IMG/VR virus record: IMGVR_UViG_3300020160_001428
Coordinates: 1-64,000 of that record
Length of the DNA stretch: 64,000 nt
Strand: one strand, 5' to 3'
From: a virus
Shown here piece by piece: positions 5,111 to 64,000 of this stretch; within the stretch, counting starts at the first letter, position 1, and every line of letters starts with the position of its first letter. Made by a program: the position numbers and the translations under genes. Below the pieces are notes generated by a model. The model worked only from the letters and a program-made list of their open reading frames with translations. It did not search any database and was not told where the DNA came from.

Positions 5111-5138
5111 TATAACAAGAAATATAACATTAGCACAT

Positions 5139-5164: not shown

Positions 5165-5187
5165 ATTGTAATAAGAAAGTATGCAGT

Positions 5188-8169: not shown

Positions 8170-8188
8170 TTTTCGTTCCTCTTATTGA

Positions 8189-8196
8189 ATATTTAG
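8189..8196 (-). promoter_or_regulatory. Late promoter box before clpS
   Basis: Minus-strand CTAAATAT, about 20 nt from the clpS ATG, which also has an AGAGGA ribosome site. Confidence 0.45.
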
Positions 8197-8228
8197 TAGG
8201 GAGAATGTTACTTCTCCCCGGTTAACGA

Positions 8229-8654: not shown

Positions 8655-8686
8655 TATATTTTCTCCTTAATTAAGCAAGAATGACT

Positions 8687-8711
8687 GTGGGGCCTCACCC
8701 GAGCACCCCAC
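8687..8711 (-). terminator. Intercistronic hairpin dnaK-hsp20
   Basis: GTGGGG and CCCCAC pair around a 13-nt loop, with no T-run after it. More likely an attenuator or mRNA-end stabiliser than a full terminator. Confidence 0.4.
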
Positions 8712-8722
8712 GTTACTGTTTA

Positions 8723-10594
8723 TTAAACAGTTTCTTTAAACTCAGCATTAACAGTTTCTGGTTCACCTGTTTGTGGCTGAGGTTGTGCTTTGGCTTCCAT
8801 TAATGGCTGTGCCGCGGCAAACAAGTCACTGACTTTCTGCGTGATAGCTTCTTTGTCTGTGCCCTTGACTGCTTCGTCAACTTCTGTAGCGGCCGCTTCG
8901 ATAGCAGTTACTTGTTCAGCTGTTAACTTGTCTTTATGTTCTTCTAGATCCTTACGGACTTCGTGAACTTGTGCTTCTGCTCCATTACGTGCAGTCACTA
9001 GTTCCACAGTCTTCTTATCTTCTTCGGCATTGGCTTCGGCATCTTGTACCATCTGTTGGATCTCTGCATCGCTTAGTCCACTGTTGGCTTTGATAGTGAT
9101 CTTATTTTCTTTGCCAGTGTTTTTATCCTTGGCACTTACGTTAAGAATACCGTTTGCGTCGATATCAAGTGTGACTTCAATCTGTGGAGCGCCACGGCGA
9201 GCAGGTGCAATACCTTCTAAGTTAAACTCGCCTAGTAGTTTGTTGTACTGTGCAAGTTCACGTTCACCTTGGCTAACTTTAATAGTTACCGCAGGTTGGT
9301 TATCTTCTGCTGTTGAAAACACTTGACTGTGCTTGGTTGGGATAGTTGTGTTCTTTTGAATCAACTTGGCGAACACTCCGCCCATTGTTTCAATGCCTAA
9401 TGATAGAGGTGTTACGTCAAGCAACAGCACGTCATTACGGTCACCTGCTAGCACAGCACCTTGAATGGCCGCACCCGCCGCAACTGCTTCGTCTGGGTTG
9501 ACATCTTTACGTGGAGCCTTACCGAATAGTTTCTCTACTGTTTCCTGTACTTTAGGCATACGTGTCATACCACCAACAAGAATAACTTCGTCGATGTCTG
9601 CAATGCTAACACCTGCATCTTTAATAGCAGTTTGGCATGGGCCAACTGAACGCTGAATCAGTTCTTCAACTAGACTTTCTAGTTTACTGCGGCTGATAGT
9701 AATGTTCATGTGTTTTGGGCCACTTGCATCTGCTGTGATGTATGGCAAGTTAACACTAGTACTGGCACTGCTTGACAGTTCAATCTTGGCTTTTTCAGCG
9801 GCTTCTTTTAGACGTTGTAGAGAAAGGATGTCATTCTTAAGATCAACTCCACTTTCTTTCTTGAACTCATCTACTAAAAAGTCCATGATGCGTTGATCAA
9901 AGTCTTCACCACCTAGAAATGTATCTCCGTTAGTGCTCAGTACTTCGATTTGTTTATCGCCTTCCACATTTGCAATTTCAATGATTGATACGTCGAATGT
10001 ACCACCACCAAGATCGTAAACAGCAATTTTCCTGTCTCTTTTATCAGCTTTATCAACACCATAAGCAAGAGCTGCCGCAGTAGGCTCGTTAATAATACGA
10101 AGTACTTCCAAGCCTGCGATTTTTCCAGCGTCTTTAGTAGCCTGTCTTTGGCTGTCGTTAAAGTAAGCCGGTACTGTGATAACTGCTTGAGTAACTGTTG
10201 TACCAAGATAATCCTCCGCTGTCTTTTTCATTTTACGTAGCACTTCTGCAGAAATCTGTGGAGGTGCTAGTTTGTCGCCATTTACTTCAACCCATGCATC
10301 ACCGTTGTCGGCTTTGACAATAGAATAAGGCATCAAGTCGATGTCTTTTTGCACAGCCTGTTCATCAAACTTACGTCCAATTAAACGCTTTGCCGCATAG
10401 ATTGTATTTTTGGGATTTGTTACTGCTTGACGCTTTGCGCTTGCGCCTACTAGGATTTCGTTGTTAGCGTATGCAACAATACTAGGTGTAGTACGTGCGC
10501 CTTCGCTGTTTTCGATTACCTTTGTGACTCCATTTTCAATAATGGATACGCATGAATTTGTTGTACCTAAATCGATACCGATGACTTTGCTCAT
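8723..10594 (-). CDS. dnaK: DnaK (Hsp70) chaperone
   Basis: A complete 623-residue DnaK. The ATPase motifs [35 protein letters not shown] and VGGMTRMP are present. The substrate-binding domain ([19 protein letters not shown] onward) and a helical lid follow, and the tail is short (EFKETV) rather than the usual E-E-V-K ending. It would need host DnaJ and GrpE, which are absent here. A full-length dnaK is rare in phage genomes. Its pairing with hsp20 and clpS suggests a protein-quality module. It has an AAGGAG ribosome site and an upstream late box. Confidence 0.96.
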
Positions 10595-16552: not shown

Positions 16553-17113
16553 TTATCTTCCTTGTAATCGGTCATTTACGACTGACCAATCGATAATTCG
16601 CCAAATATTTTCTAAATACTTGGCTTTATTTTGTTGATAGTCTAATGCCCACGCATGTTCCCATGCATCTATCAATAGAGCAATAGTCATGCCCTTTGTG
16701 TATTCGTGATTATGTATTGTATGTAACTTGCCACCTGGATCCATGTAAATCCAATTTGATCCTTGCGCGGCCATAAATTCTTTTTCTACTGCTTCTTTAA
16801 ACTTGTCAAAGCTACCATAGGCCGCATCGATAAGTTCTGCACTATCGCCTGCGGGCTTGTTTGCGGCTCTTGCAGGAGTAAGTCCTGCAAAGAACAAGTT
16901 ATGCAGTACTGCGCCGCCGTAGTTAAACTTTGAGTCACCTTCACCTTTATTGTATCTTTCAAAATACTTTGCGGCCAAACCGTCAAAGTGATAGTTAAGA
17001 GTTGCTTCACTCATAACAGGATCTAACTCGTTCTTATCAAACTTTAATTTGCTTTGAACTAGTTCTCTGCCGTCAGCATCCTCTTTAAGATACTTAATAA
17101 AGTGCATGGTCAT
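16553..17113 (-). CDS. sodB: Fe/Mn superoxide dismutase
   Basis: A 186-residue SOD. Metal ligands are seen as LNYHFDGLAAKYF (first His), AVLHNLFFAGL (second His) and DAWEHAWALDYQ (Asp and third His). It converts superoxide to peroxide and oxygen. It lies inside the Fe-S gene cluster, between iscU and the second A-type carrier, with an ATGA overlap. This is consistent with protecting new Fe-S clusters. Whether Fe or Mn is used cannot be read from the sequence. Confidence 0.92.
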   Translation of the reverse strand: MTMHFIKYLKEDADGRELVQSKLKFDKNELDPVMSEATLNYHFDGLAAKYFERYNKGEGDSKFNYGGAVLHNLFFAGLTPARAANKPAGDSAELIDAAYGSFDKFKEAVEKEFMAAQGSNWIYMDPGGKLHTIHNHEYTKGMTIALLIDAWEHAWALDYQQNKAKYLENIWRIIDWSVVNDRLQGR

Positions 17114-47567: not shown

Positions 47568-48031
47568 GGTGCGTTATCCCATCCTAATCTTATAAATCTA
47601 ACTCCAGTGTCCTGTAATCCATATTTGATTGTTCTAATAAATGAACGCCCTGTCTCTGGGGTAAACAAAGGAATGTCTAAGGCATTAGTGAGCAAGTTAT
47701 CATCGTCAACTAAGTGCCCGCGACCGCAGATACTATAACAACCATTGTGCCCAGCATTAACAAAGATAATACTACCGTTATGTTCTGCCCAACCTTTAAT
47801 ATTGAGTTTGATTTGTTCGTATGCTTTATACAATACAAAGCCCGCAACTCCGTATATTATAACACGCTTTCCTTGACTTGCAAGGCCTGCCGCTATGTTA
47901 ACCATATTAGGTTCTTGTACGCCGCAGTTGATTATTTTATAGTTGCCGTCAGTCCACTTCCACATGTCTGCATGTAGAAAGTAAACTTCTCCTGGATAAC
48001 GATTTAAAAATTTATGTAAAGTTGCTCTCAT
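47561..48031 (-). CDS. Transketolase C-terminal (pyrimidine-binding) subunit, 156 aa
   Basis: Pyr domain of a split transketolase: NCGVQEPNMVNIAAGLASQG includes the activating Glu, and KRVIIYGVAGFVLYKAYEQI follows. It lacks the third domain. Its TPP-binding partner is at 49223-49939, with the halogenase gene between. Substrate is probably a sugar precursor. Confidence 0.82.
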   Translation of the reverse strand: MRATLHKFLNRYPGEVYFLHADMWKWTDGNYKIINCGVQEPNMVNIAAGLASQGKRVIIYGVAGFVLYKAYEQIKLNIKGWAEHNGSIIFVNAGHNGCYSICGRGHLVDDDNLLTNALDIPLFTPETGRSFIRTIKYGLQDTGVRFIRLGWDNAPW

Positions 48032-49292
48032 CTTCTAACCATTTATAGTATAGCGTTCCTCTGTGTATGTCAATTAGTTCTTGTGGGTTTACTGTGTCAG
48101 CTGGTCGAGCTACATCATCTCTAAAGCCAGATAATACATAATCCCACGCTTCCGCTGGAAATATATCAATTTCTTTACGATCCTCTACAGGGACGGTTTT
48201 GTAATGATTCCAGTAGTCGTTGTCTCGTTTAGAATATTTGTAGTGGGCAATGATAAAATTCATTACGGAATCAAATTCATCATTTGTCTCTGCATTGTAT
48301 TCATCTTCTTCAAGTGTGCCATTAATATATGCTGTTAATCTTTTTAGTGCAGAAGTTACCAAATATAATCCAGTTGATTCGATCGGCTCAATGAACGCAG
48401 ACGCTAGTCCAATGGCAACTATATTATCTTTCAAGTGTATTTTGTTTCTGCCTGTAGTCATTGAAACAGATCCAATTTGATGCGGTTCTACAGTAATATG
48501 AAACTTATCCTGTGCATACTTAATAAAATCATCCAATACATCGTATTTGCTGTCATGTACATATCCAATAGCTAGCTCAGTACCTAACGGAATATTCCAT
48601 ATCCAACCATGCGGCATTGCTTTGAATATACTATATGGTTTACATTGCATTTCTTTATCAGTATATGCGTGTCTAAAGACCAATGCACGATTGTTTGGTA
48701 TTTTATCTGCAATACTTACAAAGTTATCCGGCCATGAGGCTACATATCTCCCAAAACCAGTGCTATCAATAAGAAGATCACATGTTCCTTCTACATCTTT
48801 TAAAGTTACAAATTTGCGTATAATTGTTAAATTAGGAATACTAGGCGCTAGTGTATCCATATAGGCTAACAGTTCAGTGGCTCTAAAATGCACAGAAATA
48901 TCTTTGTATTCTAAAATATTATCGGGTATCTTATCAGTTGCTATTATCTTATCTATACTTGAACTGTTGTACCTGTCAGTCTGTCCTACTCCAAACGGAA
49001 ATGTAAAACTTTCTCCGTTTTGATTAAAGTCTTGAAACTTAATTCCAAGTTTAAGTGTGCCATTACAGTGATTAATAACATCCTTGTGAGAGATGCCAAG
49101 ATCGTTTAGAAATTGACTTACGTCTGGTATAAGAGCTTCACCAACCCCTATAGGTTTGTTCTCTTCGGGATATATCCAAGTAATTTCTTTGTCAGGATAT
49201 TGCTTTGACAAATAGAATGCTGTTAGGTATCCTGAAGTTCCTGCACCAACGATTGTAATTCGGTTAATGTTTCTATCTTTTTGTAATGCCAT
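48012..49292 (-). CDS. Flavin-dependent (tryptophan-type) halogenase, 426 aa
   Basis: ITIVGAGTSGYLTAF is the FAD motif (G-x-G-x-x-G); IGVGEALIPDVSQFL; TLKLGIKFQDF carries the catalytic-Lys position (Lys81); GWIWNIPL is the W-x-W-x-I-P motif that excludes monooxygenation; IEPIESTGLYL the Glu-Ser. These are hallmarks of FADH2-dependent halogenases. A phage enzyme of this type (VirX1) is known. Substrate and halide cannot be read. It sits between the two transketolase subunits. Confidence 0.88.
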   Translation of the reverse strand: MALQKDRNINRITIVGAGTSGYLTAFYLSKQYPDKEITWIYPEENKPIGVGEALIPDVSQFLNDLGISHKDVINHCNGTLKLGIKFQDFNQNGESFTFPFGVGQTDRYNSSSIDKIIATDKIPDNILEYKDISVHFRATELLAYMDTLAPSIPNLTIIRKFVTLKDVEGTCDLLIDSTGFGRYVASWPDNFVSIADKIPNNRALVFRHAYTDKEMQCKPYSIFKAMPHGWIWNIPLGTELAIGYVHDSKYDVLDDFIKYAQDKFHITVEPHQIGSVSMTTGRNKIHLKDNIVAIGLASAFIEPIESTGLYLVTSALKRLTAYINGTLEEDEYNAETNDEFDSVMNFIIAHYKYSKRDNDYWNHYKTVPVEDRKEIDIFPAEAWDYVLSGFRDDVARPADTVNPQELIDIHRGTLYYKWLEDESNFT

Positions 49293-49939: not shown

Positions 49940-50514
49940 TTTGGAATTAACTTTCCCATAGTTAACTTGTCTAGCGGATATTCTAATATTCCAGATTTAA
50001 AATTTAGAATTGCATCTATAGTTTTGGCTACAAAGACATCAACATCTAAATATAGATCTTCAAAAGGTATGTCTGTATAGTCCTTACGTAATATCCTAGG
50101 CTGTAGTCTATCTGATTTCATTGCCGTAACGTCTGCTAGTCTTGTACTGTATATTGTGCCAATTCGCAATATTAAATAGTCGTCGCAATTATATTTGATA
50201 TAGTTTTCTAAATAGAATTTACCAAGATTGTAACTAGTACTGCCAGAGTGATCTAATATTAGATCGTCAACGCCAGTTGTACTAGCAAATACAATTGGCA
50301 TATCTAATCTATCAACTAATTTAATTGTTTCTCTAACATACTGATGCATGACATGTGCGTCATGCTGTGACAAATGGCTGTGTGTAAATGTAGGACTGCC
50401 AAGGTGCAGATACATGTCAATATTCTGTGTACCGTCTACCCATTCTATTTCAGTTCGTTCTCTTAATTTGCTAGCTAGGAATCCGCCCCAGCCTGATAAT
50501 CCAACTTTTTTCAT
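49936..50514 (-). CDS. Short SDR-like (Rossmann) protein, 192 aa
   Basis: LSGWGGFLASKLRERTE is a G-x-G-G-F-L cofactor loop; VFASTTGVDDLI and SYNLGKFYLENYIKYNCDDY hold the S and Y-x-x-x-K. Short, missing C-terminal third. Third SDR of the island, probably a reductase or epimerase for a sugar. Confidence 0.75.
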   Translation of the reverse strand: MKKVGLSGWGGFLASKLRERTEIEWVDGTQNIDMYLHLGSPTFTHSHLSQHDAHVMHQYVRETIKLVDRLDMPIVFASTTGVDDLILDHSGSTSYNLGKFYLENYIKYNCDDYLILRIGTIYSTRLADVTAMKSDRLQPRILRKDYTDIPFEDLYLDVDVFVAKTIDAILNFKSGILEYPLDKLTMGKLIPK

Positions 50515-51596
50515 ATTGATACTGTTCCTGGTTTTCTAGATAGGTAAAAGTCTCCGCCGCAGTAATCCCACCGGCAGACAGTTCCTGTTTTAAATAATAT
50601 AGATAATTTAGTTATTGCTAACTTGTCTGTTACTAGATTAGTATATGGCACTTCGGGCGCACTATCGCGAATGAAGTTTGTCATATGTATTCCGCAATGG
50701 AACACATTGCCGTCACCGTTGATAGTTATAGACTCTTGTCCTGCCGCACACTTCCAGCCACGTGCATCTATGCCCAATTTAAATAGATCATTTGTGGTGT
50801 ATATTACATCGTCGATTTCGTATCGTTGTTCTGTTTTGTTGTGTTGCTTATAAAATGCCATATGCTTTTCTGCAACATCTTCTGGATATACATAATGACA
50901 GAAGCCATAGATCATTTCGCAGTTTTGTATTTTTTCATATTCTAAATAGGAAACAACTTTGGCATAAAACTCTTCAGGAATAACTTCTACAGTCTTTCCC
51001 TGATACCATCGATCGCCGCGTTCAACGTTCTCCATCATAATATCCATGTTGTGGATAGGAATGCCTAGCTCTTTAAGCACTTCCCAGTTATGGTCGAAGT
51101 CTTTAAGTTTATTCATCCGCTTGAGTTCTAAGTAGTGGAAACTAGCATTAAATTGATCACAGTACGGAAGCATAGCACGTAGCTTATCTTCTTTAATAGT
51201 AAGATTAGTCTGCATCTCGTTGTATGCATTAATACCAGTCTCGGCACCCTTTTGATGTATATACTTTAGAATGTCTAAGCAACGAGGATGTCTAGTAGGT
51301 TCTCCTCCGTGATAGTAAAACAACACGGATTTAAATCCTTGTTTTTGAAAAAACTCAAACAATTTATCAACTGTTATAATAATATCTTCGTATGTGTAAT
51401 GTTTTCCGCTATGCCAGTGACAGTAATTACATTTTAGATCACATGCTTCTGTAATACGGAATGTGACCATATAGTCGTAGTCTATACCACCTTGCTCGAG
51501 GTTGCTGAGCATGTTATAGGACCGCAGTGGTTTAATTTGCCCAACTTGCATGTCTTCTTTATGTCTAACTACTTTGAGTTTTTTCCAATCTGCCAT
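50511..51596 (-). CDS. Radical SAM/SPASM protein, 361 aa
   Basis: ITEACDLKCNYCHWHSG is the 4Fe-4S C-x3-C-x2-C; FYYHGGEPTRHPRC carries the G-G-E-P. C-terminal CAAGQESITINGDGNVFHCG and CRWDYCGGDF bind further clusters (SPASM-like). Related enzymes modify peptides, tRNA or sugars. Preceded by a good sigma70 promoter and AAGGA. Confidence 0.88.
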   Translation of the reverse strand: MADWKKLKVVRHKEDMQVGQIKPLRSYNMLSNLEQGGIDYDYMVTFRITEACDLKCNYCHWHSGKHYTYEDIIITVDKLFEFFQKQGFKSVLFYYHGGEPTRHPRCLDILKYIHQKGAETGINAYNEMQTNLTIKEDKLRAMLPYCDQFNASFHYLELKRMNKLKDFDHNWEVLKELGIPIHNMDIMMENVERGDRWYQGKTVEVIPEEFYAKVVSYLEYEKIQNCEMIYGFCHYVYPEDVAEKHMAFYKQHNKTEQRYEIDDVIYTTNDLFKLGIDARGWKCAAGQESITINGDGNVFHCGIHMTNFIRDSAPEVPYTNLVTDKLAITKLSILFKTGTVCRWDYCGGDFYLSRKPGTVSI

Positions 51597-51614
51597 TTAT
51601 ATTATCCTTGTGCT

Positions 51615-51643
51615 ATTGTAAACTATTTGCAGTTAATTGTCAA
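51615..51643 (-). promoter_or_regulatory. Sigma70 promoter before the radical SAM gene
   Basis: TTGACA (51638-51643), 17-bp spacer, TACAAT (51615-51620), 19 nt before the ATG. It separates the 50.5 kb unit from 51.6-63 kb. Confidence 0.7.
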
Positions 51644-52475
51644 CCTGATTGTAAAAAAACAGGAACTGAGGTATAAAGCAAACAGCATTGCCCAATTTGA
51701 CTTCTACTACCTCCCCTTTAAATTTTCCAGTTGGATCACTTTTAGGAATAAAGTTAAATTTTGAATTCGTGTTCTTTAAAGCAGGAAGTGTTGTTGTTTT
51801 ATATTTGGATTGTAAATGTAACAGTTCTATTCGTGTCATATGTTCTAATTTAGATTTTGAATCAGTGTCAATACTATCAAACTCTACGTTTTCGACCACT
51901 TGATATAGATCATCAACTTTGTTTAAAAATATTCCACTGCTAACTAATTCGTCAAATAGTTCTCGAGCTTCACTAACAGTAATAAACTCGTAGTCATTGT
52001 TGTAGACAAAACTTTTAAAATAATCTAAGAGATCGTTAGAGGAATCAAAATGCTTGCGGGCAATTGCTTCTAAGTTATCAAATCTGTTTTGAAATTGCGT
52101 GTCTTTCCAGTCTTTCCATATAAAATCTAAGAAGTAATCTCGATTGCATGTCACACTGTCTGCCCACCATAGTCTATGAAATATAGTTCTTGCAAAACAA
52201 TTGGCTTGGAACACAAATTCATTTAATTCCAAGTAAGCGCATTTATCTTTATACATGAGAGTTTCACAGATTATATCAAAGAATGGAACGTTATGTTCAG
52301 TTAGATGATAGGTATTAATTTCATTGTGAGCGCATCTGGGTTTTATTTGATGTGTTGGATATCTACTGTTGAGATCAACTGCTCTTGCTGTTTTTATACC
52401 TTGTATAAAATTGACAATACTATTAAACTCAGAGCTTTCTAAGTATTCAGTAGTGTTTACGTTGTAAGGAGTCAT
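51633..52475 (-). CDS. Hypothetical protein, 280 aa
   Basis: Not recognised. Helical, with HQIKPRCAHNEINTYHLTEH, CAYLELNEFVFQANCFARTI and FIWKDWKDTQFQNRFDNLEA. No signal. It sits between radical SAM genes with a 4-bp overlap to the next gene, so may be a substrate-handling partner. Confidence 0.65.
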   Translation of the reverse strand: MTPYNVNTTEYLESSEFNSIVNFIQGIKTARAVDLNSRYPTHQIKPRCAHNEINTYHLTEHNVPFFDIICETLMYKDKCAYLELNEFVFQANCFARTIFHRLWWADSVTCNRDYFLDFIWKDWKDTQFQNRFDNLEAIARKHFDSSNDLLDYFKSFVYNNDYEFITVSEARELFDELVSSGIFLNKVDDLYQVVENVEFDSIDTDSKSKLEHMTRIELLHLQSKYKTTTLPALKNTNSKFNFIPKSDPTGKFKGEVVEVKLGNAVCFIPQFLFFYNQVDN

Positions 52476-53272
52476 TCTTTGCTCCTTAAGAAAAATCTCA
52501 TTAACTCTCCATAAAACTCGTCATCTGTCATTTCTCTTCCGGTTATTTTAAAACTTTTTACTCCCATTGCAATTAGTCGTTGCATGGCATCGGGTTTAAT
52601 ATCCATACAATCATACTTGCTGTCTCTACTAGGATCAAACTTTGGTAGCCAACATTCTTCTACTTCTGCGCTGTATGGTCTGCCTGCGGTGTTTTCATCA
52701 GCAATGGCTTTAAAGTGTTGATCCCAATATTTGCAACCCCATATACAAGTGTCGTTCAACATGACTTCCCACTTGGAGCAGTCAAGCTCAGTTGCTCTAG
52801 GATCAAATATGTGTTCAAATCTTGGCACTATCCAATCGTATTTGCTTTCAAGGTCTTTGTACCATGCAATATCAGAATCCTGTAATGGTATATTAAGTAG
52901 GCCCATTCCTGTTATGCTATAGATTAGATCGTATTTGGGAAAGTGTGTTCTCACATACTGACGTAGATCATCATTGACTATGATTAAAGAGTTACCTTCT
53001 CTGTGAAATTTTTCTAGTAGATGGTTTCCTGTCTCGTCATCTAAATTGATCTTGTGATTGCTCATGGTAAGAGCGATGCTTACATTTTTATTATAATAAT
53101 AATTAATTAAAGCATCGTTATAGAACACGTCTCGATTTATTCGACCACCGTTCCATCGACACTTATTGATGCCATCATAGACTACTAGATTGTCTAGACT
53201 CGTGGCCTTATTTCCTAAAAATTTAATTAAAGGAATGGACTTACTAAATGCTCCTGCTATTAAATATCTCAT
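52472..53272 (-). CDS. Hypothetical protein resembling U32-like TIM-barrel partners, 266 aa
   Basis: Pattern IALTMSNHKINLDDETGNHL, LIIVNDDLRQYVRTHFPKYD and LIYSITGMGL, with a C-terminal CIWGCKYWDQHF and KSFKITGRE. This follows the architecture of U32 peptidase-like proteins that sit beside radical SAM enzymes in glycan loci, including W-N-G-G-R-I-N. The match is by eye. Confidence 0.6.
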   Translation of the reverse strand: MRYLIAGAFSKSIPLIKFLGNKATSLDNLVVYDGINKCRWNGGRINRDVFYNDALINYYYNKNVSIALTMSNHKINLDDETGNHLLEKFHREGNSLIIVNDDLRQYVRTHFPKYDLIYSITGMGLLNIPLQDSDIAWYKDLESKYDWIVPRFEHIFDPRATELDCSKWEVMLNDTCIWGCKYWDQHFKAIADENTAGRPYSAEVEECWLPKFDPSRDSKYDCMDIKPDAMQRLIAMGVKSFKITGREMTDDEFYGELMRFFLRSKE

Positions 53273-53279
53273 TTGTTTC

Positions 53280-54029
53280 TCACATTAAGAAGCATTTATT
53301 TTTTGGACAAATGCCGTCTGTTTTTATTCTATAACAACAATTATACATTTCCAATTGCGGACTGTATAAAAAGTACTTGTCTTTGTATAAACAAGGTTTT
53401 CCCTTTGGGCTAAATGTCACACTGGCCCAAACTTCAGATCTAGGTTTACCCAACCGAGTTACTTCTTCAAATTTTATAATCTTACTATAGGCCGGGTCAT
53501 TTTTTAATTTAAGATATTCTTGCAATGCAATATTGCTTCGACCATCACCAAAATCTGTAATAGGCGTTAGATACACGTTGCCGGTTTTGGTATGTTCTTT
53601 TACCTTAAGATAATACCATATTGCTTCTTTGCCGCTAAACATTACATCGATTACCCTACAGGTAATATTTTCTTTAAGGATGTCTTCTATATCTTCATGG
53701 CTAACTTCAGTTGGATGTATGCTAGCCTGCAGGGTATAAGGCTCGCTAATGGTTTTCATTACTTCAATGCTGTGTTTGCTAAGATTAGTCTGAATGACAA
53801 ATGGTATTTGAAATTCATTAAAGCACTTAATAATATATCCAATTTCAGGATGCACAAATGGTTCGCCACCAAAGACAAATACCTCAACGCCCGGATACGT
53901 ATCTCCTAGCATCTTGACAAATGTTCTTAGTGTGTTGTGATCTGTAACATGATGTATACTTTTGTCCAAGTTGGAACAATAGTAACAGTTGTAGTTACAT
54001 TTCATAGTGACTTCCCATTCAACTTGCAT
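53280..54029 (-). CDS. Radical SAM protein, 249 aa
   Basis: MKCNYNCYYCSNLDKS is the cluster motif and VEVFVFGGEPFVHPE the SAM-binding G-G-E-P. C-terminal CLYKDKYFLYSPQLEMYNCC and CPKNKCFL have four or more further Cys. Short and compact, like a peptide-modifying enzyme. Overlaps the next one by 11 bp. Confidence 0.85.
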   Translation of the reverse strand: MQVEWEVTMKCNYNCYYCSNLDKSIHHVTDHNTLRTFVKMLGDTYPGVEVFVFGGEPFVHPEIGYIIKCFNEFQIPFVIQTNLSKHSIEVMKTISEPYTLQASIHPTEVSHEDIEDILKENITCRVIDVMFSGKEAIWYYLKVKEHTKTGNVYLTPITDFGDGRSNIALQEYLKLKNDPAYSKIIKFEEVTRLGKPRSEVWASVTFSPKGKPCLYKDKYFLYSPQLEMYNCCYRIKTDGICPKNKCFLM

Positions 54030-54927
54030 TCTTTACCTTAAGTTGTTTTAGTAGCCCGTCACAGTTGCAGGCCTTATGCGGACAAATCATGGGAATTGTT
54101 TTAGTGATGTTTTTAAAGAAATCTGGATTACGCAATAGATTTACGTCATCTTCTTTTGCTAGACAAAACTTTACTACATTTCCACGCACATCAATTTCAT
54201 AGTTGTTGTTATAGCAACTCCAACCTTTAAAATTAGTTAGTCCTTGTTGAAAGACTTGATAATCATTAAACCGGTCGTTGTCATAGGCTAGATCTTTTTC
54301 TATTTCATCTTCAAAGAACTTAAAGTATTCCCAAAATTCTTTGCGATAGTTAAACAATTTCTGTATAGTATTTCCGTAGATAAAATGAGGGTGTATTTTG
54401 AGTCCAGGTATTCCCTTGCAAATTTCATACATTTCTTTTATCTGTGGCCACAGTCGTTTATCGTGGTGTAGCATAATATTAACTTTACACTTGTACCCAC
54501 GTTCAACCATGTGTTTCATGTTGTTGACAAATCTAACAGGGTCAGTGCAATCAGCAGGATGATAGCTGAATAAAAATGCTAACCTATCATAGTGTGGATG
54601 AGTTGTTAAATCCTTTTCAGCATTAGTTACTACGTAGACAAATTGAAACTTTTCTAATGCAGAAATCTTATCTAGTATATAATAGTAGTGTGGTCCGATA
54701 GTGGGTTCTCCACCTAGTAGGCCCAAGTTGAAAGGCAGGCTACTTCTATCCAGTGCTTCAATAACGCCGTCGATAGTCTGCTTGCTAGATATTTTACCCC
54801 ACTCTTTTCCATACTCGTTTCGAGCATAGCAGTAGGAACAATGCAGTTGGCAAATGGTCAAACTATCCCAATGTACATTAATGTGATCAGGATCTTGTTG
54901 TATATGATGTTGTTTTACGTAGTCCAT
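54019..54927 (-). CDS. Radical SAM/SPASM-like protein, 302 aa
   Basis: LTICQLHCSYCYARNEYG cluster, LGLLGGEPTIGPHYYYIL SAM motif. C-terminal CYNNNYEIDVRGNVVKFC and CPHKACNCDG give extra Fe-S ligands. Overlaps the following radical SAM gene by 13 bp. Confidence 0.86.
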   Translation of the reverse strand: MDYVKQHHIQQDPDHINVHWDSLTICQLHCSYCYARNEYGKEWGKISSKQTIDGVIEALDRSSLPFNLGLLGGEPTIGPHYYYILDKISALEKFQFVYVVTNAEKDLTTHPHYDRLAFLFSYHPADCTDPVRFVNNMKHMVERGYKCKVNIMLHHDKRLWPQIKEMYEICKGIPGLKIHPHFIYGNTIQKLFNYRKEFWEYFKFFEDEIEKDLAYDNDRFNDYQVFQQGLTNFKGWSCYNNNYEIDVRGNVVKFCLAKEDDVNLLRNPDFFKNITKTIPMICPHKACNCDGLLKQLKVKNAS

Positions 54928-55856
54928 GATCTCTCTTTATAGTAGTTGGTCATTCTTCTCGATGGGCAGATGTCATTTGGACACGTTTCTTTTTTAACAA
55001 TATCTCCGCCTAGATATAAAGGTAACTTCTTTCCAGTACAGGTAATATCAATAGTGCCATCTATCCTAACCGTTAAACTTGCAGGAGTACAGGTATAACC
55101 TTTAAACTTATTTAGGCCTTGATATTCTATCTCGTAATCTTTTAATATTCTTTGACTGCCGTCATCAAAGGTACAGTCAACTTCTTCAAAGTAGGTCCAC
55201 CCTCCCATTGCACCGTCTGTGTTTTCAGCTTCTTCCAAGTATGTATGAAATGTGTTAAAAAATTCATCTGTATAGTTTGGGGTAAAGTCTTGTGTTGGTG
55301 CTAGTATGCAAGGCTTAAATTCAATATTGTTAGTCTTTAAGAAATTAAGAAACTCTAAGGTAGTTGTCCATAATGCAGTATCGTCACTCATACTGACATG
55401 TACTGAGAATCGTATATCGGGCAATTTGTTTATTTCTAAACATTTATTAAAAAACTTAGGGTGTGCATACTGTGGATGATAGGAAGCAAATACAACCAAT
55501 TTTCCTGCGCCTATATTACTGAGGGTATCATAAAACTCGACAGGTTTAACCAAATTAGTAAAAAATGATATGTCCTGACATTGCTCCATATCAGCTAATC
55601 CTTGAACAACTTCTTGCACATAAGGATATAACGTAGGTTCACCTCCGGTAATGCAGATATTAAATGGCATCTTAATGTTATTCAGTCGGGCTAATGTTAT
55701 TTGGTGATTAGCAGTATGATCGGGTTTTGAAAAGTCGTTAGACAATGATCTCAGAACTGGACAGTACGAGCATTTAAAATTGCACCAGTTAGTTAATGGC
55801 CAGTCAATAAAGAGGCGTTCTACTGGTCTTCCACAACTAAGAATTGGGTTTATCAA
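54915..55856 (-). CDS. Radical SAM/SPASM-like protein, 313 aa
   Basis: LTNWCNFKCSYCPVLRSL cluster, ICITGGEPTLYPYVQE SAM motif. C-terminal CTPASLTVRIDGTIDITCTG and CPNDICPSR. Third in a row; overlaps the GT2 gene by 20 bp. Confidence 0.86.
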   Translation of the reverse strand: MINPILSCGRPVERLFIDWPLTNWCNFKCSYCPVLRSLSNDFSKPDHTANHQITLARLNNIKMPFNICITGGEPTLYPYVQEVVQGLADMEQCQDISFFTNLVKPVEFYDTLSNIGAGKLVVFASYHPQYAHPKFFNKCLEINKLPDIRFSVHVSMSDDTALWTTTLEFLNFLKTNNIEFKPCILAPTQDFTPNYTDEFFNTFHTYLEEAENTDGAMGGWTYFEEVDCTFDDGSQRILKDYEIEYQGLNKFKGYTCTPASLTVRIDGTIDITCTGKKLPLYLGGDIVKKETCPNDICPSRRMTNYYKERSWTT

Positions 55857-56505
55857 CGGCGTTTCCTTCTAAACAATGATATGTTGTATTTACTAGGGAA
55901 TTAGCCTGTGAAAAAGAAATGTTGTCTCCACCATCTATTGTCTGATAATAGAATACCTTGTTTAGGGTTTTGATCGACTTGGCTTGAAGTGCGGCATGGA
56001 CTGTTAGTTTGATATCGTTGTGTATGTTACTGTCCATGGGAAACTCAAAATCAATTATACAATCACGTTTATATATGTGCTGTGATAGTTGCAGATGCTC
56101 GGTGTTTAATCTATCTAAAAACTCGTCCGATGTTAACTGACTATTTTTGTACAATGTCATAAAAGTTAACATATTTGATGTTTCATATGTAGGGCAATAA
56201 TTCCCTACTATTAAGTCAGCGTCTAATCTAATAGTTAGAAAGTCTTTATGCAGATAGTCATCATCTTCCAAATAATAAACATATTCGCCCTGAGCAATTT
56301 CTAATAAAAATTTATACTTTTCACATAGACTACCTGATGCATAGTAGAAGTATTTTACCTGCGGATGTTTAATTTCTTCAATATCGCAACTATCATTATT
56401 AACTAATACTTCAACTCCGGGAGTAATCTGTGCAAGAACACTTTCTAAACAACGAGTAAACAGCTTAGGTCGATTATGAGTAAGGATTAAAATACTTAAA
56501 TGCAC
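55837..56505 (-). CDS. Glycosyltransferase family 2-like, 222 aa
   Basis: LSILILTHNRPKLFTRCLES, then VLVNNDSCDIEEIKHP, then YVYYLEDDDYLHKDFL with the D-x-D metal motif. GT-A fold. It transfers a sugar to an unknown acceptor. It is sandwiched between radical SAM genes, suggesting their product is a glycan or glycopeptide. Confidence 0.85.
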   Translation of the reverse strand: MHLSILILTHNRPKLFTRCLESVLAQITPGVEVLVNNDSCDIEEIKHPQVKYFYYASGSLCEKYKFLLEIAQGEYVYYLEDDDYLHKDFLTIRLDADLIVGNYCPTYETSNMLTFMTLYKNSQLTSDEFLDRLNTEHLQLSQHIYKRDCIIDFEFPMDSNIHNDIKLTVHAALQAKSIKTLNKVFYYQTIDGGDNISFSQANSLVNTTYHCLEGNAVDKPNS

Positions 56506-57485
56506 TTTATCTTATCTCCATTAACGGGTCTGGGTTCGACGTGGCCTTTTAATTCGTTTTCAATTCCGTCGCAGACAAAAAAGTATTTGCATCCTGTACA
56601 TTTGACTGTTTTAAAATAACTTTGCAGTCTAATACGCTCTGCTTCTACTAGGCATTGTTCAACTTTTTCTTTTTGACTGTAGAGTTTACTAGTATCTAGA
56701 TTACCACTGTAAACTGCTTTGTTCCAATCTTTTAAATCATAAATGTGTTGATAGTGTCCTTTTACATGATCAACATATCCTTCCATATAACACGGAGGAA
56801 AGTATCGAGCATTTACTTCAATTAGGTTTTGTAATTTATCTATATACCGTTTGACATAGTCGCACACTAGGGCATAATCAATTATGTTACCGTTAGCATT
56901 GTCTTGCCAATAATTCAATGCAATAAAATTTACCTGTGTGGGCTTAAGATCTAGCATTACTTGAGTGTCAATATTATTGTAGTTTAATTCACAAATGGTA
57001 GTGTTTAATCGTACCTCAATGCCCAATTGATGTGCGTTAGCAATTGCTCGTAGTATGTTATCAAATGCACCTTTCTTACCTACAATTGTGTCGTGTACGT
57101 CTGCGGTAGTGGCATGCAGACTAAACAGTATTTCTCTTAGCCCGAGATTGTAAGATCGCTTGGCAAACTCAATGTTACTAAACTTTCCGCCGTGACTTAG
57201 ACAACTGATGCGTTTAAATTTATCCTGACAATACTCAAGTATTTTAAACCAATTAGGTTCTACTGAGCTTTCACCGCCAGACAGGTCAATTTCTTCAATG
57301 CCATATGCTAAAAGATAATCGACTCTATCAGTTATTTGTTTAAGAGTATCGCGTTCAGTAAGATGATTTTTATAATAACAAAAGTCACAAGAATAGTTAC
57401 AAAGTTTACCCGTGTCTAGTTTTGCCCTAGAATTAATAGGACGATCATAATCTATCTCAAGTTGATTAACACTTAATTTGTTCAT
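56496..57485 (-). CDS. Radical SAM/SPASM-like protein, 329 aa
   Basis: TGKLCNYSCDFCYYKNHL cluster, EIDLSGGESSVEPNWFKIL (G-G-E-S SAM motif), C-terminal CLVEAERIRL and VKCTGCKYFFVCDGIEN cluster. Resembles peptide or tRNA-modifying radical SAM proteins. Overlaps its neighbours by 10 and 20 bp. Confidence 0.87.
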   Translation of the reverse strand: MNKLSVNQLEIDYDRPINSRAKLDTGKLCNYSCDFCYYKNHLTERDTLKQITDRVDYLLAYGIEEIDLSGGESSVEPNWFKILEYCQDKFKRISCLSHGGKFSNIEFAKRSYNLGLREILFSLHATTADVHDTIVGKKGAFDNILRAIANAHQLGIEVRLNTTICELNYNNIDTQVMLDLKPTQVNFIALNYWQDNANGNIIDYALVCDYVKRYIDKLQNLIEVNARYFPPCYMEGYVDHVKGHYQHIYDLKDWNKAVYSGNLDTSKLYSQKEKVEQCLVEAERIRLQSYFKTVKCTGCKYFFVCDGIENELKGHVEPRPVNGDKIKCI

Positions 57486-60189: not shown

Positions 60190-60600
60190 TTATCTCCTTA
60201 AATAGTCTTGTATAACGGCGTTGACTGCATTATCATCATTATAATCAGTTAACATTTGAAGTTGATTTATTACAGAAGAATATTCATTTTTATTCTTCTC
60301 AATTTCTTTAATATTATCTTTTAATGTAAGATATTTTTCAAGATTGTTAATTAAATTCTCATCGCCTGTTTCAATAATTTTAATATAACACTCTTCTTTG
60401 TTACTATCAGTAATGATAATTCCTTTACTGATAAATTCATTGTTTAATAACATAAAAGAAACAAAGTCAACTAATGTAAACGATAATAAATTATCTCCCA
60501 TAATACCGCGTACTTTGGTTTTGACTGCTTTCGCGGCTTTACCTGCATAGGTACTAGCATCAATTCCTTCTACTTCTTCATAATTAGTGATTTCTTTCAT
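60190..60600 (-). CDS. Hypothetical protein, 136 aa
   Basis: MKEITNYEEVEGIDASTYAG, a conserved-looking LLSFTLVDFVSFMLLNNEFI, then Lys/Glu-rich coiled coil (IKEIEKNKNEYSSVINQLQM). Soluble. It overlaps the small gene above. May be a chaperone or assembly partner of the heptad-repeat tail proteins. Confidence 0.65.
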   Translation of the reverse strand: MKEITNYEEVEGIDASTYAGKAAKAVKTKVRGIMGDNLLSFTLVDFVSFMLLNNEFISKGIIITDSNKEECYIKIIETGDENLINNLEKYLTLKDNIKEIEKNKNEYSSVINQLQMLTDYNDDNAVNAVIQDYLRR

Positions 60601-60850
60601 TTTTTAACCTTTCAATTTCGTCAGATAATTCTTGTACTGCTTTGATCAATGGAAAAATTAACTGATGCGGATTAGCTACAATAAAGTATCCGTCTCGATC
60701 TTTTTCTAAAATAGTGTATTTTTCTATTGGCCAAATTTCATTTATATTCTGTGCCATACAGCTCATAGTTTTTCTTACTGTATCACCTTTAGTGTTGTCA
60801 GTATATATATGCTCTGCAGGTCTTAGCTGTTTTATTTTCTCTAAACTCAT
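60584..60850 (-). CDS. S74-like chaperone remnant, 88 aa
   Basis: YTILEKDRDGYFIVANPHQL, then IFPLIKAVQELSDEIERLKN look like the helical C-terminal end of a peptidase S74 intramolecular chaperone. The preceding repeat protein ends shortly after S-D-E-Q-V-K, where the S74 part would start. A separate small protein supplying the missing half is an inference. TAATG overlap with it. Confidence 0.6.
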   Translation of the reverse strand: MSLEKIKQLRPAEHIYTDNTKGDTVRKTMSCMAQNINEIWPIEKYTILEKDRDGYFIVANPHQLIFPLIKAVQELSDEIERLKNERNH

Positions 60851-61494
60851 TACATATACTCAATTTCAGTTTTAACTTGTTCATCGCTATAGTTGCAATT
60901 ACAGGTACATGAGTAATTGCAGTTACAGGTGCAGTAGTTGCAGTTACATGTGCAATAGTTGCAGTTACAGGTGCAGGCGATCCTAGAGTCATTAATTTGA
61001 TTTACTAAGGAATTTATATGAACAGCTCTAATCTTTGATCCAACTAATGCGGCAAATGATGTTGCATTGCTAACTGCGGGCACCTGTGGATAGGTTATAG
61101 TTTCCGGTTGTGGGACTGGACCATATACTGGTATCTGGTTGCCAGTCGGGTTTCCGTAAGGATCAAGTTCTGGAGTATAGCCAACTACTACTTGCCCGTT
61201 AGGACTATTGATATTCTGGTTAGCTCCATTTTGTGCTGTTGTTGCCGCTGGTCCTGCAACGCTTACAGCAGTAATAATAGTGTCTAGGCGGGCCGCTGAA
61301 ACTGTTCCCGAGTAATAGCCGGCAGGTATAACGATATTAGATTGGCCTCTTCGAACTCTTTCATTGATTGCAGCCTGAAAAATGCCAGCCATGGCTGAGC
61401 CACTAATAGTAGTGCTAGTTCCAACGTAGCCGCCGATGTACCCTAGAGCATTTGATGCGTTGGTTCCGTAAACGTTTGCAACTAAACTTGCCAT
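60850..61494 (-). CDS. Tail protein with Cys-rich heptad repeats, 214 aa
   Basis: Starts MASLVANVYGTNASNALGYI, then helical/beta region with IFQAAINERVRRGQSNIVIP and QNINSPNGQVVVGYTPELDP. At ~173-201 it has four C-T-C-N-C-N-Y units (Ser inserted before the last). It ends S-D-E-Q-V-K-T-E-I-E-Y-M, a shortened S74-like start. Member of a three-gene paralogue set. Confidence 0.78.
   Translation of the reverse strand: MASLVANVYGTNASNALGYIGGYVGTSTTISGSAMAGIFQAAINERVRRGQSNIVIPAGYYSGTVSAARLDTIITAVSVAGPAATTAQNGANQNINSPNGQVVVGYTPELDPYGNPTGNQIPVYGPVPQPETITYPQVPAVSNATSFAALVGSKIRAVHINSLVNQINDSRIACTCNCNYCTCNCNYCTCNCNYSCTCNCNYSDEQVKTEIEYM
60889..60975 (-). repeat. 21-bp tandem repeats coding C-T-C-N-C-N-Y
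   Basis: Four near-identical 21-bp units encode the Cys-rich heptads; identical unit design to 61723-61809 and 62374-62460. Confidence 0.9.
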
Positions 61495-61500
61495 TTATAA

Positions 61501-62334
61501 CTACTCCACCTCAAAATTAATTGGTAATTTTGAGTAGTTAACAAAATAGTATCCGTCTAGGTCTTTACCTAGAGCACATTCGTATTTGGTGCCTTGTAGT
61601 TCTTGAGCCATTACTCCACGATAGCGAGTCGATTTATCTTTGATATAGTTCCAAGAATAAACATTTAAATTATTTTCAACTTTAATAAATTTGATATTTT
61701 CTTTTAATCTTATATCACTACCATAATTACAATTACAGGTACATGCATAATTGCAGTTACAGGTGCAGTAGTTGCAATTACAGGTGCAGTAGTTGCAATT
61801 ACAGGTGCATACAGCGCCGGCAGAATTAATAGCACTAATTAGTGTATTAATATCTACAGAACTTATCCGTTGGTCTTTACTGAACGATGTTCCAACTGAC
61901 GGCGCCGGTGATTGTGGATAGGTTATTACTTCTGGAGTAGGTACTGCGGCGTATGTTGGGGTTGAACCAACTACATTTCCGTAACCGTCAAGGATCGGAG
62001 TTGAACCTGTTTGTACTACTCCGTTAGAACTATTGATATTCTGATTAGCTCCGTTATATGCTTGACTGGCCGCTGGGCCGGCCTGCTGAACTGTTGTAAT
62101 AATCTCTTGAACCCTAGCCCCTAATATTTTTCCACTAAAATAACTTGCCGGAAGTTGAATTGCTGAGCCGCCGCGGCGACTTCTTTCTGCAATGGCTTTA
62201 TTTGCTATATCAACTAATTTGTTTTCTCGCATTACGTCAGTAGATAACACGCCGGCCAGGTTATGAGTTACGGCATTAGTGGCATTAGTTCCGTATATAC
62301 TTTTAGTCAGTCCCGAAAAAGTTGGTAATGCCAT
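61501..62334 (-). CDS. Tail protein with Cys-rich heptads and S74-like domain, 277 aa
   Basis: Starts MALPTFSGLTKSIYGTNATN and has NKAIAERSRRGGSAIQLPAS, as in its paralogues. Four C-T-C-N-C-N-Y units at ~176-204. Then GSDIRLKENIKFIKVENNLN, with the Ser/Lys signature of the self-cleaving peptidase S74 intramolecular chaperone, and YRGVMAQELQGTKYECALGK. This domain is short (72 aa). The full version of the fold the two neighbours lack. Confidence 0.83.
   Translation of the reverse strand: MALPTFSGLTKSIYGTNATNAVTHNLAGVLSTDVMRENKLVDIANKAIAERSRRGGSAIQLPASYFSGKILGARVQEIITTVQQAGPAASQAYNGANQNINSSNGVVQTGSTPILDGYGNVVGSTPTYAAVPTPEVITYPQSPAPSVGTSFSKDQRISSVDINTLISAINSAGAVCTCNCNYCTCNCNYCTCNCNYACTCNCNYGSDIRLKENIKFIKVENNLNVYSWNYIKDKSTRYRGVMAQELQGTKYECALGKDLDGYYFVNYSKLPINFEVE
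61723..61809 (-). repeat. 21-bp tandem repeats coding C-T-C-N-C-N-Y
   Basis: Four 21-bp units, Ala inserted before the last, directly before the S74-like domain. Confidence 0.9.
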
Positions 62335-62907
62335 TTACATGTACTCCACTTGACTTTTAAGTTGTTCATCGCTATAGTTGCAGTTACAGGTACATGAGTA
62401 ATTGCAGTTACAGGTGCAGTAGTTGCAATTACAGGTGCAGTAGTTGCAGTTACAGGTACATACAGCACCAGCAGTATTAATTTCTGTAATTAGTGCATTG
62501 ACAATAGCACTAGTTATTCTTTGGCCGGCTATAAAGTTTCCTGAGCCGCTAGGAACTGCTACTTGACCGTAAGTAGTTATTGCTGGAGGATTGCCACTAT
62601 TAGCGCCACCTCCATAATTGGTATTGTATGCTTGACTAGTTGCGGGTCCTGCAATTTCTACATTAGTTTTAATTTCTTGAATTTTGCTTGCAAATAATCT
62701 ACCAGTATAATAATTAGAAGGAATAGCAATTGCCGAACCACCGCGACGTGTTCTTTCTGAAATAGCTTTTTGTGCTATATTGTAAAATATTCCGCCAGAC
62801 ATCTTATTTGTGTTATTGACTTGTGTAAGTCCATGAGATACTGAATCGCTGGCGTCAGTACCGTAGATGTCTTTTACTAATCCCGATGTTATATTTGGTA
62901 ACGCCAT
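62335..62907 (-). CDS. Tail protein with Cys-rich heptad repeats, 190 aa
   Basis: Starts MALPNITSGLVKDIYGTDAS, with NIAQKAISERTRRGGSAIAI shared with the 277-aa paralogue. It is shorter in the middle than its siblings. Four C-T-C-N-C-N-Y units at ~149-177, then S-D-E-Q-L-K-S-Q-V-E-Y-M. Stop and start abut the next gene. Confidence 0.78.
   Translation of the reverse strand: MALPNITSGLVKDIYGTDASDSVSHGLTQVNNTNKMSGGIFYNIAQKAISERTRRGGSAIAIPSNYYTGRLFASKIQEIKTNVEIAGPATSQAYNTNYGGGANSGNPPAITTYGQVAVPSGSGNFIAGQRITSAIVNALITEINTAGAVCTCNCNYCTCNCNYCTCNCNYSCTCNCNYSDEQLKSQVEYM
62374..62460 (-). repeat. 21-bp tandem repeats coding C-T-C-N-C-N-Y
   Basis: Four 21-bp units; third copy of the array in 1.6 kb. Confidence 0.9.
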
Positions 62908-62919
62908 CGCTCCGTCTCC

Positions 62920-63318
62920 TTAAATTGCTTTTGATAAAAAGTCTAAATCTTCTTTAGCTTTATTCTGTGCTAGAAATTTGTCATAGTCGTCAAGATCAGC
63001 AGTTGATGTAATAAAATCTAGTGTGTTCTTATCAACCTCCTTGTCTGGCATTTCTTGATTTTCATTCATATCTTTGATAATCTGCATGACTAAATCAGTT
63101 AACGATATACCTAAAATAGAAGTGACCATTTCTATTTGTTTAGAAATATCAACAGTTTCAACTGGTTCAGTTCTTTCAGACATTTCTTTGATAATGTTCA
63201 TAGATAGAATAAATCCATCTAGCATAATTGTAGAAACTCCTGGTTCATCTTCAACTTCCATAAGGTTGATAATCTCTAGGATTTTTTCTAATTTTTCGTT
63301 TATTGTCATCTGAGTCAT
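62920..63318 (-). CDS. Helical protein, 132 aa
   Basis: MTQMTINEKLEKILEIINLM, then acidic/helical MLDGFILSMNIIKEMSERTE and LGISLTDLVMQIIKDMNENQ. No signal, no motif. It is coupled (ATGA) to the radical SAM gene and precedes the Cys-rich tail proteins. It could be a recognition partner, but nothing in the sequence proves it. Confidence 0.65.
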   Translation of the reverse strand: MTQMTINEKLEKILEIINLMEVEDEPGVSTIMLDGFILSMNIIKEMSERTEPVETVDISKQIEMVTSILGISLTDLVMQIIKDMNENQEMPDKEVDKNTLDFITSTADLDDYDKFLAQNKAKEDLDFLSKAI

Positions 63319-64000
63319 TTTATTTCTTTGTCCTTAAAATCATGAAATTTTGGAGAGTTTTCGTAGTTACCGTAGGTCGTTACATTACCCTCGTTAGTAA
63401 AATATGTCTTCAATTCTTTGCGTTCACCACAACCATTGCACATGTCGCAAAACAATTCGCATACAGGTACAGATACTGCTTTATTTATCCAGTCATTTCT
63501 AAGCTGATTTTTAATCTCGGTTAGCTTTTCGATGTCCTTTGGGGTTAGTGTATCCCAGGCCACACTAGTGATCATGCGCTCTGGATTAAAAGTTTTTATC
63601 AATTTGGTCATGTCTTTATACACATGGTTGATATTAAACTTATGTATGGTATAACGCATACGATATCTAAACTTGTTTTTTACTAGATTAGTAAAGACTT
63701 CAATCATACTTCTAGTACTGTCCATACCATTATGATATACCCGATCCTTGTTGCCAATTCCGTCAAAGCTAACATCTATTGATAACAGTCCCTTTTTATA
63801 AAAGAAGTTGTTCATTGTTTCATCAATAAAGTTTTGACTTAGGTATTTGATACCGTTGGTTGTCATGTTAAAATGTACATTACGTTTCTTACTAAAGGCA
63901 TAGTCCATAGCAAAGCAGACGTTCTCCCATTCTAGCGTAGGTTCGCCGCCAAACAATACAATTAGTGTTTGGCTTTTAGGATCTTCTCTAGCAAGTATTG
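63315..64000 (-). CDS. Radical SAM/SPASM-like protein, N-terminus off the window
   Basis: The frame stays open to the right edge (I-L-A-R-E-D-P-K-S-Q before LIVLFGGEP), so the cluster motif lies beyond it. Seen: FGGEPTLEWENVCFAMDYAF, LSIDVSFDGIGNKDRVYHNG and C-terminal CELFCDMCNGCGERKEL cluster. It resembles anaerobic-sulfatase-maturase-type peptide modifiers. An apparent TTG start at 63956 is internal. First known gene of the unit running into the C-T-C-N-C-N-Y proteins. Confidence 0.85.
   Translation of the reverse strand, partial: ILAREDPKSQTLIVLFGGEPTLEWENVCFAMDYAFSKKRNVHFNMTTNGIKYLSQNFIDETMNNFFYKKGLLSIDVSFDGIGNKDRVYHNGMDSTRSMIEVFTNLVKNKFRYRMRYTIHKFNINHVYKDMTKLIKTFNPERMITSVAWDTLTPKDIEKLTEIKNQLRNDWINKAVSVPVCELFCDMCNGCGERKELKTYFTNEGNVTTYGNYENSPKFHDFKDKEIK

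Follow-up and report, generated by a model that had tools for sequence, protein, structure and literature searches.

Phage tail proteins with cysteine heptads are partnered with PapB-like radical SAM enzymes that may modify them

Introduction

Why would a phage keep radical S-adenosylmethionine (SAM) enzymes directly in front of its tail protein genes? This question is raised by a 64,000-nucleotide stretch of viral DNA (the window), positions 1-64,000 of the 72,407-base IMG/VR record IMGVR_UViG_3300020160_001428. Close to its end lie genes for three paralogous tail-type proteins with dense cysteine repeats, here called tip proteins. An earlier note on this DNA proposed that phage radical SAM enzymes crosslink or otherwise modify these repeats, as in ribosomally synthesized and post-translationally modified peptides (RiPPs). 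We find that the gene partnership of the tip proteins with three upstream radical SAM enzymes, A, B and C, is real, widespread and specific. From the pattern of genes and residues, the best reading is that the tip array is a substrate of these adjacent enzymes, and we regard this statement as a whole as likely. These phages thereby probably change the chemistry of their fibre tips.

Radical SAM genes of phages have drawn attention before. The 11-12 such genes of CP220 and CPt10 were termed highly unusual and a metabolic role was suggested; a 21-bp repeat in CPT_0180 was noted in the same study and not connected to them (Timms et al. 2010, PMC2853527). The passages searched in the papers on IBB_35 and CC_R7 hold no link between radical SAM enzymes and tips (PMC3322345, PMC12398825). 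More generally, no report connecting phage radical SAM enzymes, RiPPs and tails was found in open-access papers; to this extent the statement of the earlier note that the link had not been described stands.

The cysteine array and the tip protein family

Each of the three paralogs carries three CTCNCNY heptads, one Ser or Ala, and a fourth CTCNCNY heptad, giving 12 Cys in 29 residues. The earlier note had described this array, and both the open reading frames (ORFs) and Tandem Repeats Finder confirm it, the latter with period-21 arrays at 62375-62457, 61730-61809 and 60890-60976. All DNA differences between adjacent heptads of each paralog are synonymous. The repeat is thus maintained at the protein level, where selection acts on it.

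A tblastn search of INPHARED with the tip proteins of the window gives no match, including a second run at E 0.01, and DNA patterns were used instead. An exact pattern for two heptads identifies 31 IMG/VR contigs (the strict set), a looser pattern 49 stretches, and the heptad pattern in the GTDB genome set four stretches. One locus with the heptad pattern and without a plausible tip gene (L041) was dropped. Another locus, L131, seems to be without an array and turns out to be a member with an interrupted tip ORF, in which the Peptidase_S74 domain (S74) is still present.

Translated pattern matches show arrays of about 3 to 28 heptads. Among 452 heptads, position 2 is mostly Thr (63%) or Pro (15%), position 4 is Asn (52%) or Asp (38%), position 6 is Asn (88%) or Asp (8%), and position 7 is Tyr (73%), Phe (15%) or His (8%). 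Asn or Asp therefore occupies position 4 in 90% and position 6 in 96% of heptads, and Tyr, Phe or His occupies position 7 in 96%. The array contains neither Lys nor Arg and would be missed in tryptic data. Two motifs recur in the N-terminal domains, one with ExxRR (42 of 59) and, further on, I-x-A-x-x-x-N-x-L, so the tip proteins form a family beyond the low-complexity array. In an AlphaFold2 model the N-terminal domain has a predicted local distance difference test (pLDDT) score mostly above 80, while the heptads score 36-46; the array as translated is thus predicted to be unstructured and the N-terminal domain folded. Foldseek finds no structural match for the predicted tip model. RiPP pathways involve leader removal and a short product; the tip proteins have about 125-540 residues and a folded N-terminal domain.

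Three radical SAM enzymes precede the tip genes

The full record contains eight Pfam Radical_SAM matches, three upstream of the tip genes and five downstream. The earlier note had seen one radical SAM gene beginning upstream, which is indeed present, with 290 residues in the record and two more such genes behind it. Past the window end, three enzymes rather than one therefore lie directly upstream of the tip genes.

The CX3CX2C motif for the SAM cluster is invariant in the alignments of the A, B and C families. Seven C-terminal Cys for the SPASM auxiliary clusters are invariant in A and in B, and TIGR04085 is above cut-off for A. Enzyme C is shortened and retains a single C-terminal Cys group. 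The best NCBIfam match is the ranthipeptide maturase PapB (NF047865) for A, B and C, for both enzymes from a Chloroflexi metagenome-assembled genome (MAG) and for a clostridial enzyme (54-184 bits; A 64.5, B 130, C 86.7, clostridial 184 bits). Other peptide maturases score next, among them SCIFF, QhpD and CXXX-repeat maturases, and also the dynobactin enzyme DynA and the cyclophane enzyme YhhB. The best PDB match of A and B is 5wgg, the SCIFF maturase CteB. By these comparisons, A, B and C resemble peptide-cross-linking enzymes.

A tree of 81 enzymes resolves three separate clades, A (with Chl449, 100/100), B (with Chl400, 100/94) and C (10 of 12 assigned rows, 98/99), and each clade includes members from Campylobacter phages and from the Chloroflexi MAG. 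The five downstream genes (50.5-57.5 kb) fall outside these clades, score at most 37 bits against PapB and have relatives that occur also without heptads. The earlier note had counted them in the same system, which is not supported.

Heptads and enzymes occur together

Radical_SAM is present in 31/31 contigs of the strict set, mostly in 7-11 copies, and in 12 of the 17 further viral heptad contigs, hence in 43/48 IMG/VR heptad contigs. An S74 back-translation pattern was too strict as a matched control (two contigs), and 40 controls were taken instead, 31 NrdB relatives of the window phage and nine other, random contigs. Only 6/40 controls have Radical_SAM and 2/40 have at least three copies; heptads occur in 0/40. 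Fisher tests of heptad against control contigs give 5e-13 (43/48 vs 6/40) and 7e-16, to be read with the fact that contigs are not independent, since at least eight of the strict 31 share one tip protein. Two controls have eight radical SAM genes each, none of them A, B or C, and the Cys tip is absent there. Four of the five negatives (G040, G041, G043, G052) are members of the L101 family whose contigs break off no more than 1.6 kb beyond the heptad gene. L101 itself, a Chloroflexi MAG contig, has its enzymes 3.2 kb from the heptad gene, on the side where the four negatives end. A survey across phages had been put forward as a check in the earlier note, and in its outcome heptads lacking radical SAM genes are very rare.

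The search in the opposite direction uses a profile of enzyme B alone. It yields 76 loci, down to 25% identity. Grouped at a 70% identity level, they include 29 clusters with 4 kb or more of downstream sequence. Counting as Cys-rich any ORF with at least 8 Cys per 30 residues, 21/29 clusters have one no more than 5 kb downstream and four have one 2.8-4.5 kb upstream, with 0/29 in a minus-strand control. In L173 and L186 the tip gene is marginally below the Cys threshold, and in the Campylobacter cluster it stands elsewhere in the genome. In total a tip protein is found in 28/29 clusters, and the contig of the 29th (L146) is cut at the place where its relatives have the tip. Tips found through B are often missed by the heptad pattern, having CPCNCNF heptads, CxCN hexads ending CGCNY-SDERLK, mixed arrays, or a CHSN-type array (L175).

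The gene order is A-B-97-C-132-tip-d136 in the lineage of the window and B-C-A-tip-d136 in others, where 97, 132 and d136 are small genes (Table 1). A same-strand radical SAM gene ends at most 1.6 kb upstream of 49/61 tip genes, compared with 282/1,103 other genes of the same loci, and most of the exceptions are additional paralogs after the first, or come from lineages in which the enzymes lie downstream. The arrangement of a precursor beside its maturase, known from RiPP biosynthesis, is found here in an operon held across lineages.

The partnership is kept even when linkage is lost. Cultured Campylobacter phages retain one enzyme each of A (CPT_0184), B (CPT_0023, by similarity) and C (CPT_0099), dispersed in the genome; their heptad protein is CPT_0180 in CP220. 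These phages also encode a second Cys-rich protein with C-x-x-C repeats (CKNCINCSNC...; L280 16842-17210, 24.2-24.6 kb in CP220). Its gene lies about 7 kb from enzyme B, and the protein is longer in CP21 (L167).

Could the Cys arrays be left unmodified, stabilised by metal or disulphides like T4 gp37, with the radical SAM genes merely in the same exchangeable host-range module? Cys-x-Cys arrays are able to bind metal, further radical SAM and sugar genes lie near the tips, and one contig, G037, has a heptad protein and no radical SAM gene. A shared module would hardly explain that three clades accompany the tip down to about 25% identity and through rearranged gene order, that all three enzymes are kept in Campylobacter phages though unlinked, that heptad-free relatives retain other radical SAM genes and not A, B or C, and that in clostridial prophages (below) the enzyme alone adjoins the tip. 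We consider unmodified tips improbable. Putative modification by the adjacent enzymes gains strong support from the comparison of genomes: the co-occurrence, the pairing across diverged phages, the enzyme type and the rarity of such genes in controls. This part of the earlier proposal is supported, with the five downstream genes taken out of it.

Parallel pairs and repeat types

Comparable pairs exist in other phages. In Clostridium rectalis a 434-aa PapB-like SPASM enzyme gene stands about 11 bases upstream of the gene for a 142-aa protein ending in Cys heptads, within a tail operon. Among 208 related genomes one further close homolog (45% identical) is present, again directly before a Cys-rich protein. 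Two clostridial prophages therefore have a single PapB-like enzyme right in front of a Cys-rich tail-operon protein. In Salmonella phage SPN3US and Erwinia phage ChrisDB, two ORFs for proteins of about 130 aa with 20-21 Cys each are followed at a short distance by two radical SAM genes; the Cys-rich ORFs adjoin a virion structural protein and in SPN3US are unannotated or annotated in the wrong frame. Gut phages have small Cys-rich ORFs beside PapB-like genes.

A third possibility is that the enzymes act on another substrate, such as a host glycan, a nucleotide sugar or another phage protein, for example as metabolic helpers at low oxygen. Sugar-type and glycosyltransferase genes do accompany the radical SAM genes downstream, and a metabolic role is what was suggested for CP220 and CPt10 (PMC2853527). 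That downstream cluster, though, holds other radical SAM clades. Peptide maturases give the best scores for A, B and C, and beside the clostridial and SPN3US-like pairs such a cluster is missing. Another substrate thus appears very unlikely to us.

The repeat type varies with the enzyme set. By profile assignment, C is missing from the locus, and A and B are present, in the 11 loci whose arrays consist of CxC hexads without any CxCxC heptad. On the hexad contigs, of up to 278 kb, no C-type match is found; the best hit, 85 bits, comes from an A-type gene, compared with about 196 bits or more for a true C. Nearly every heptad locus has the full set of A, B and C, and L175, with its CHSN-type array, has C as well. 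Three Cys per repeat would match three enzymes, which is suggestive only. In the tree of A and B the hexad lineages fall on one side (weakly supported), so that the covariation of hexads and C is perhaps one event and is not given as statistics.

Possible chemistry of the modification

Thioether links are the likeliest chemistry by analogy with PapB, and we hold them with roughly even confidence. PapB joins the Cys sulphur to the beta-carbon of Asp (gamma-carbon of Glu), tolerates n = 0-6 in Cys-Xn-Asp, and removes 2 Da per link (PMC9413430). By analogy, A and B as PapB-like SPASM enzymes, together with their shortened relative C, would act on the array Cys and join their sulphur to a carbon of the neighbouring Asn or Asp at positions 4 and 6, perhaps also of the aromatic residue 7, with a loss of 2 Da per link. 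Positions 4 and 6 lie inside the spacing that PapB tolerates. The use of Asn rather than Asp as acceptor would be a departure from PapB and is the weakest step of the mechanism. A floppy Cys-rich tail would in this way become the rigid tip of a trimeric tail fibre, proof against oxidation as well as reduction.

The enzymes may instead modify the tip without thioethers, by C-methylation or epimerisation of Asn or Tyr, by Cys-Tyr or C-C cyclophane links, or by different reactions of A, B and C. Three families with differing C-termini suggest three reactions, DynA and YhhB, which have other chemistries, also score after PapB, and the conservation of Asn and of an aromatic residue is as high as one would expect of acceptors. 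Nevertheless, the best match throughout is the thioether enzyme PapB, with the thioether maturases SCIFF and QhpD close behind, and Cys is the only feature that heptad, hexad and tetrad tips all have. Such chemistry is, in our view, rather unlikely.

Several points speak against modification of the array by PapB-like enzymes. Every NF047865 score is below the equivalog cut-off of 340 bits, and PapB is known to act on CX3D/E rather than on Asn-bearing heptads. No Pfam match to a RiPP recognition element (RRE, PqqD-like) is found in A, B, C or the small proteins. The 43.8-kb fragment G037 (L102) has heptads without any radical SAM gene and is the sole real exception among the heptad contigs. L092 and L107 are heptad lineages in which no C is found, and the covariation of hexads with the absence of C may reflect a single evolutionary event. 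Finally, the heptad protein is unmentioned in the main text of the published IBB_35 virion proteome. We infer that the arrays stand at virion tips.

Taken more broadly, phages would have possessed for a long time a radical-based machinery dedicated to maturing virion proteins, in which up to three PapB-like enzymes place C-S cross-links along the Cys repeats of the tip and the enzyme number follows the Cys per repeat; parallel versions would have evolved in unrelated phages, the clostridial siphophages and SPN3US-like jumbo phages. We lean slightly towards this wider picture.

The S74 chaperone is intact, split or absent

The earlier note had read all three paralogs as tail proteins with heptads. 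The arrays are present in all of them, while an intact Peptidase_S74 (PF13884, 31.7 bits against a cut-off of 22) is found only in tip protein 2; tip proteins 1 and 3 terminate 12 codons past the array. What comes after the array in 65 distinct tip proteins is a stop (20), SDxRLK with a few residues and a stop (20), a full S74 (14) or other sequence (11). S74 proteins self-cleave just before the SDxRLK motif. If this holds here, the mature C-terminus is the Cys array in the first three classes.

The S74 domain can also be split directly after SDxRLKxxIxYM. Its C-terminal part is then an ORF of its own, 0-30 nt downstream, recurring across lineages: in the window and in L086, L090, L092, L094, L107, L110, L154 and L173. 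This separate ORF is possibly a chaperone supplied in trans. A programmed frameshift uniting the two parts was considered and set aside, because the spacing varies from 0 to 30 nt and separate initiation is likelier. Folding of the tip would be aided by the S74 chaperone, whether cleaved off, made as a separate chain, or absent.

Neighbouring genes

The features of the tip locus and of the compared phages are listed in Table 1. The d136 gene occupies the same position in most related loci, including phages with the B-C-A order. The 132-aa protein is predicted to be all-alpha, with six helices, and lacks an RRE-like wing in the predicted structure.

Table 1. Positions of tip, enzyme and accompanying genes in the record and in compared phages
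Feature	Location	Strand	Basis and remarks
Tip protein 1, 190 aa	62335..62907	minus	ORF: folded N-terminal domain, four heptads 62374-62460, then SDEQLKSQVEYM and stop
Tip protein 2, 277 aa	61501..62334	minus	ORF: four heptads 61723-61809, then intact Peptidase_S74
Tip protein 3, 214 aa	60850..61494	minus	ORF: four heptads 60889-60975, then SDEQVKTEIEYM and stop
S74 C-terminal part, separate 88-aa ORF	60584..60850	minus	PHROG tail-fibre C-termini match; start overlaps stop of tip protein 3 (TAATG)
d136 gene, 136 aa, function unassigned	60190..60600	minus	Directly downstream of tip gene(s); phrog_25260 match
Small 132-aa protein between enzyme C and tips	62920..63318	minus	Conserved synteny and alignment; kept in the lineage of the window
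Radical SAM enzyme C, 290 aa	63315..64187 of record (window holds 63315..64000)	minus	Pfam, NF047865, CX3CX2C
Small 97-aa ORF	between enzymes B and C		
Radical SAM enzyme B, 374 aa	64477-65601 of record, outside window		
Radical SAM enzyme A, 368 aa	65603-66709 of record, outside window		
Salmonella phage SPN3US (L278), Cys-rich ORFs	5124-5522, 5536-5937		ATG starts, common N-terminal part, C-S-G type repeats
Erwinia phage ChrisDB (L279), Cys-rich ORFs	5079-5468, 5472-5873		ATG starts, common N-terminal part, C-S-G type repeats
Heptad protein of G037/L102, 252 aa, 17 heptads	L102 9806-10564		Among tail/fibre genes

The earlier note had also taken the Fe-S genes at 15.8-17.4 kb to be explained by the heptad system. 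NifU_N occurs in 6/24 heptad contigs compared with 11/19 heptad-free controls, and this explanation falls away.

Other regions of the window have features of their own. A second conserved cassette downstream of the tip (50511-57485) combines glycosyltransferase-like proteins with radical SAM genes of other clades, and equivalents exist in L131, L173 and L186. A flavoprotein of the tryptophan-halogenase family (PF04820, 230 bits) is encoded at 48012-49292 among epimerase, PIG-L and other sugar-type genes. A phage-encoded Curlin-repeat protein and a full-length CsgG are found at 2085-4529. Heme oxygenase, ClpS-like and Hsp20-like proteins, a full-length DnaK (854 bits) and an Fe/Mn superoxide dismutase are encoded at 7307-10594 and 16553-17113, and the gene of the dismutase adjoins the Fe-S assembly genes.

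Significance

If the modification is real, these phages would be, to our knowledge, the first viruses that apply radical SAM peptide chemistry to their own structural proteins, and RiPP chemistry would be a way of building virus particles. The puzzle posed in 2010 by the 11-12 radical SAM genes of group II Campylobacter phages (PMC2853527) would be explained for at least three of them. The question could be addressed in cultured phages, and it bears on fibre-tip stability and receptor reach. The system would also supply enzymes suited to large proteins with long Cys arrays. The comparison also brings out Cys-rich phage proteins missed by annotation, as in SPN3US.

Comparison with known systems

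Among the closest known systems is the ranthipeptide system PapA/PapB (NF047865), which shares with the phage loci a radical SAM/SPASM maturase adjoining the gene of a Cys-repeat substrate. The phage substrate differs in being a large tail-type protein with C-x-C-[ND]-C-N-[YF] heptads, served by three enzymes rather than one, and no RRE is seen among the Pfam matches. The CXXX-repeat target system (TIGR04115/TIGR04119) also combines a radical SAM maturase with a Cys-repeat target. The clostridial enzyme reaches 148 bits and SPN3US gp103 126 bits against it, both below the cut-off of 350 bits; that system is bacterial, without a tail protein or S74 chaperone. The SCIFF maturases (TIGR03974; CteB, PDB 5wgg) and QhpD (TIGR03906) are thioether-forming SPASM enzymes too, but the phage enzymes score far under their equivalog cut-offs, and SCIFF maturases act on a short six-Cys peptide, QhpD on an enzyme subunit.

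On the fibre side, the tip of the T4 long tail fibre, gp37, is a His-lined needle in which His-x-His binds iron and no enzyme is involved. Like gp37, the tip proteins carry ligand-type side chains at regular intervals in what would be the C-terminal tip of a fibre; here the repeat is C-x-C-x-C rather than H-x-H, and dedicated radical SAM enzymes accompany it. With Peptidase_S74 fibres many tip proteins share the SDxRLK start of S74 after the array, whereas in the tip proteins the array often ends the protein or the C-terminal part of S74 is a separate downstream ORF.

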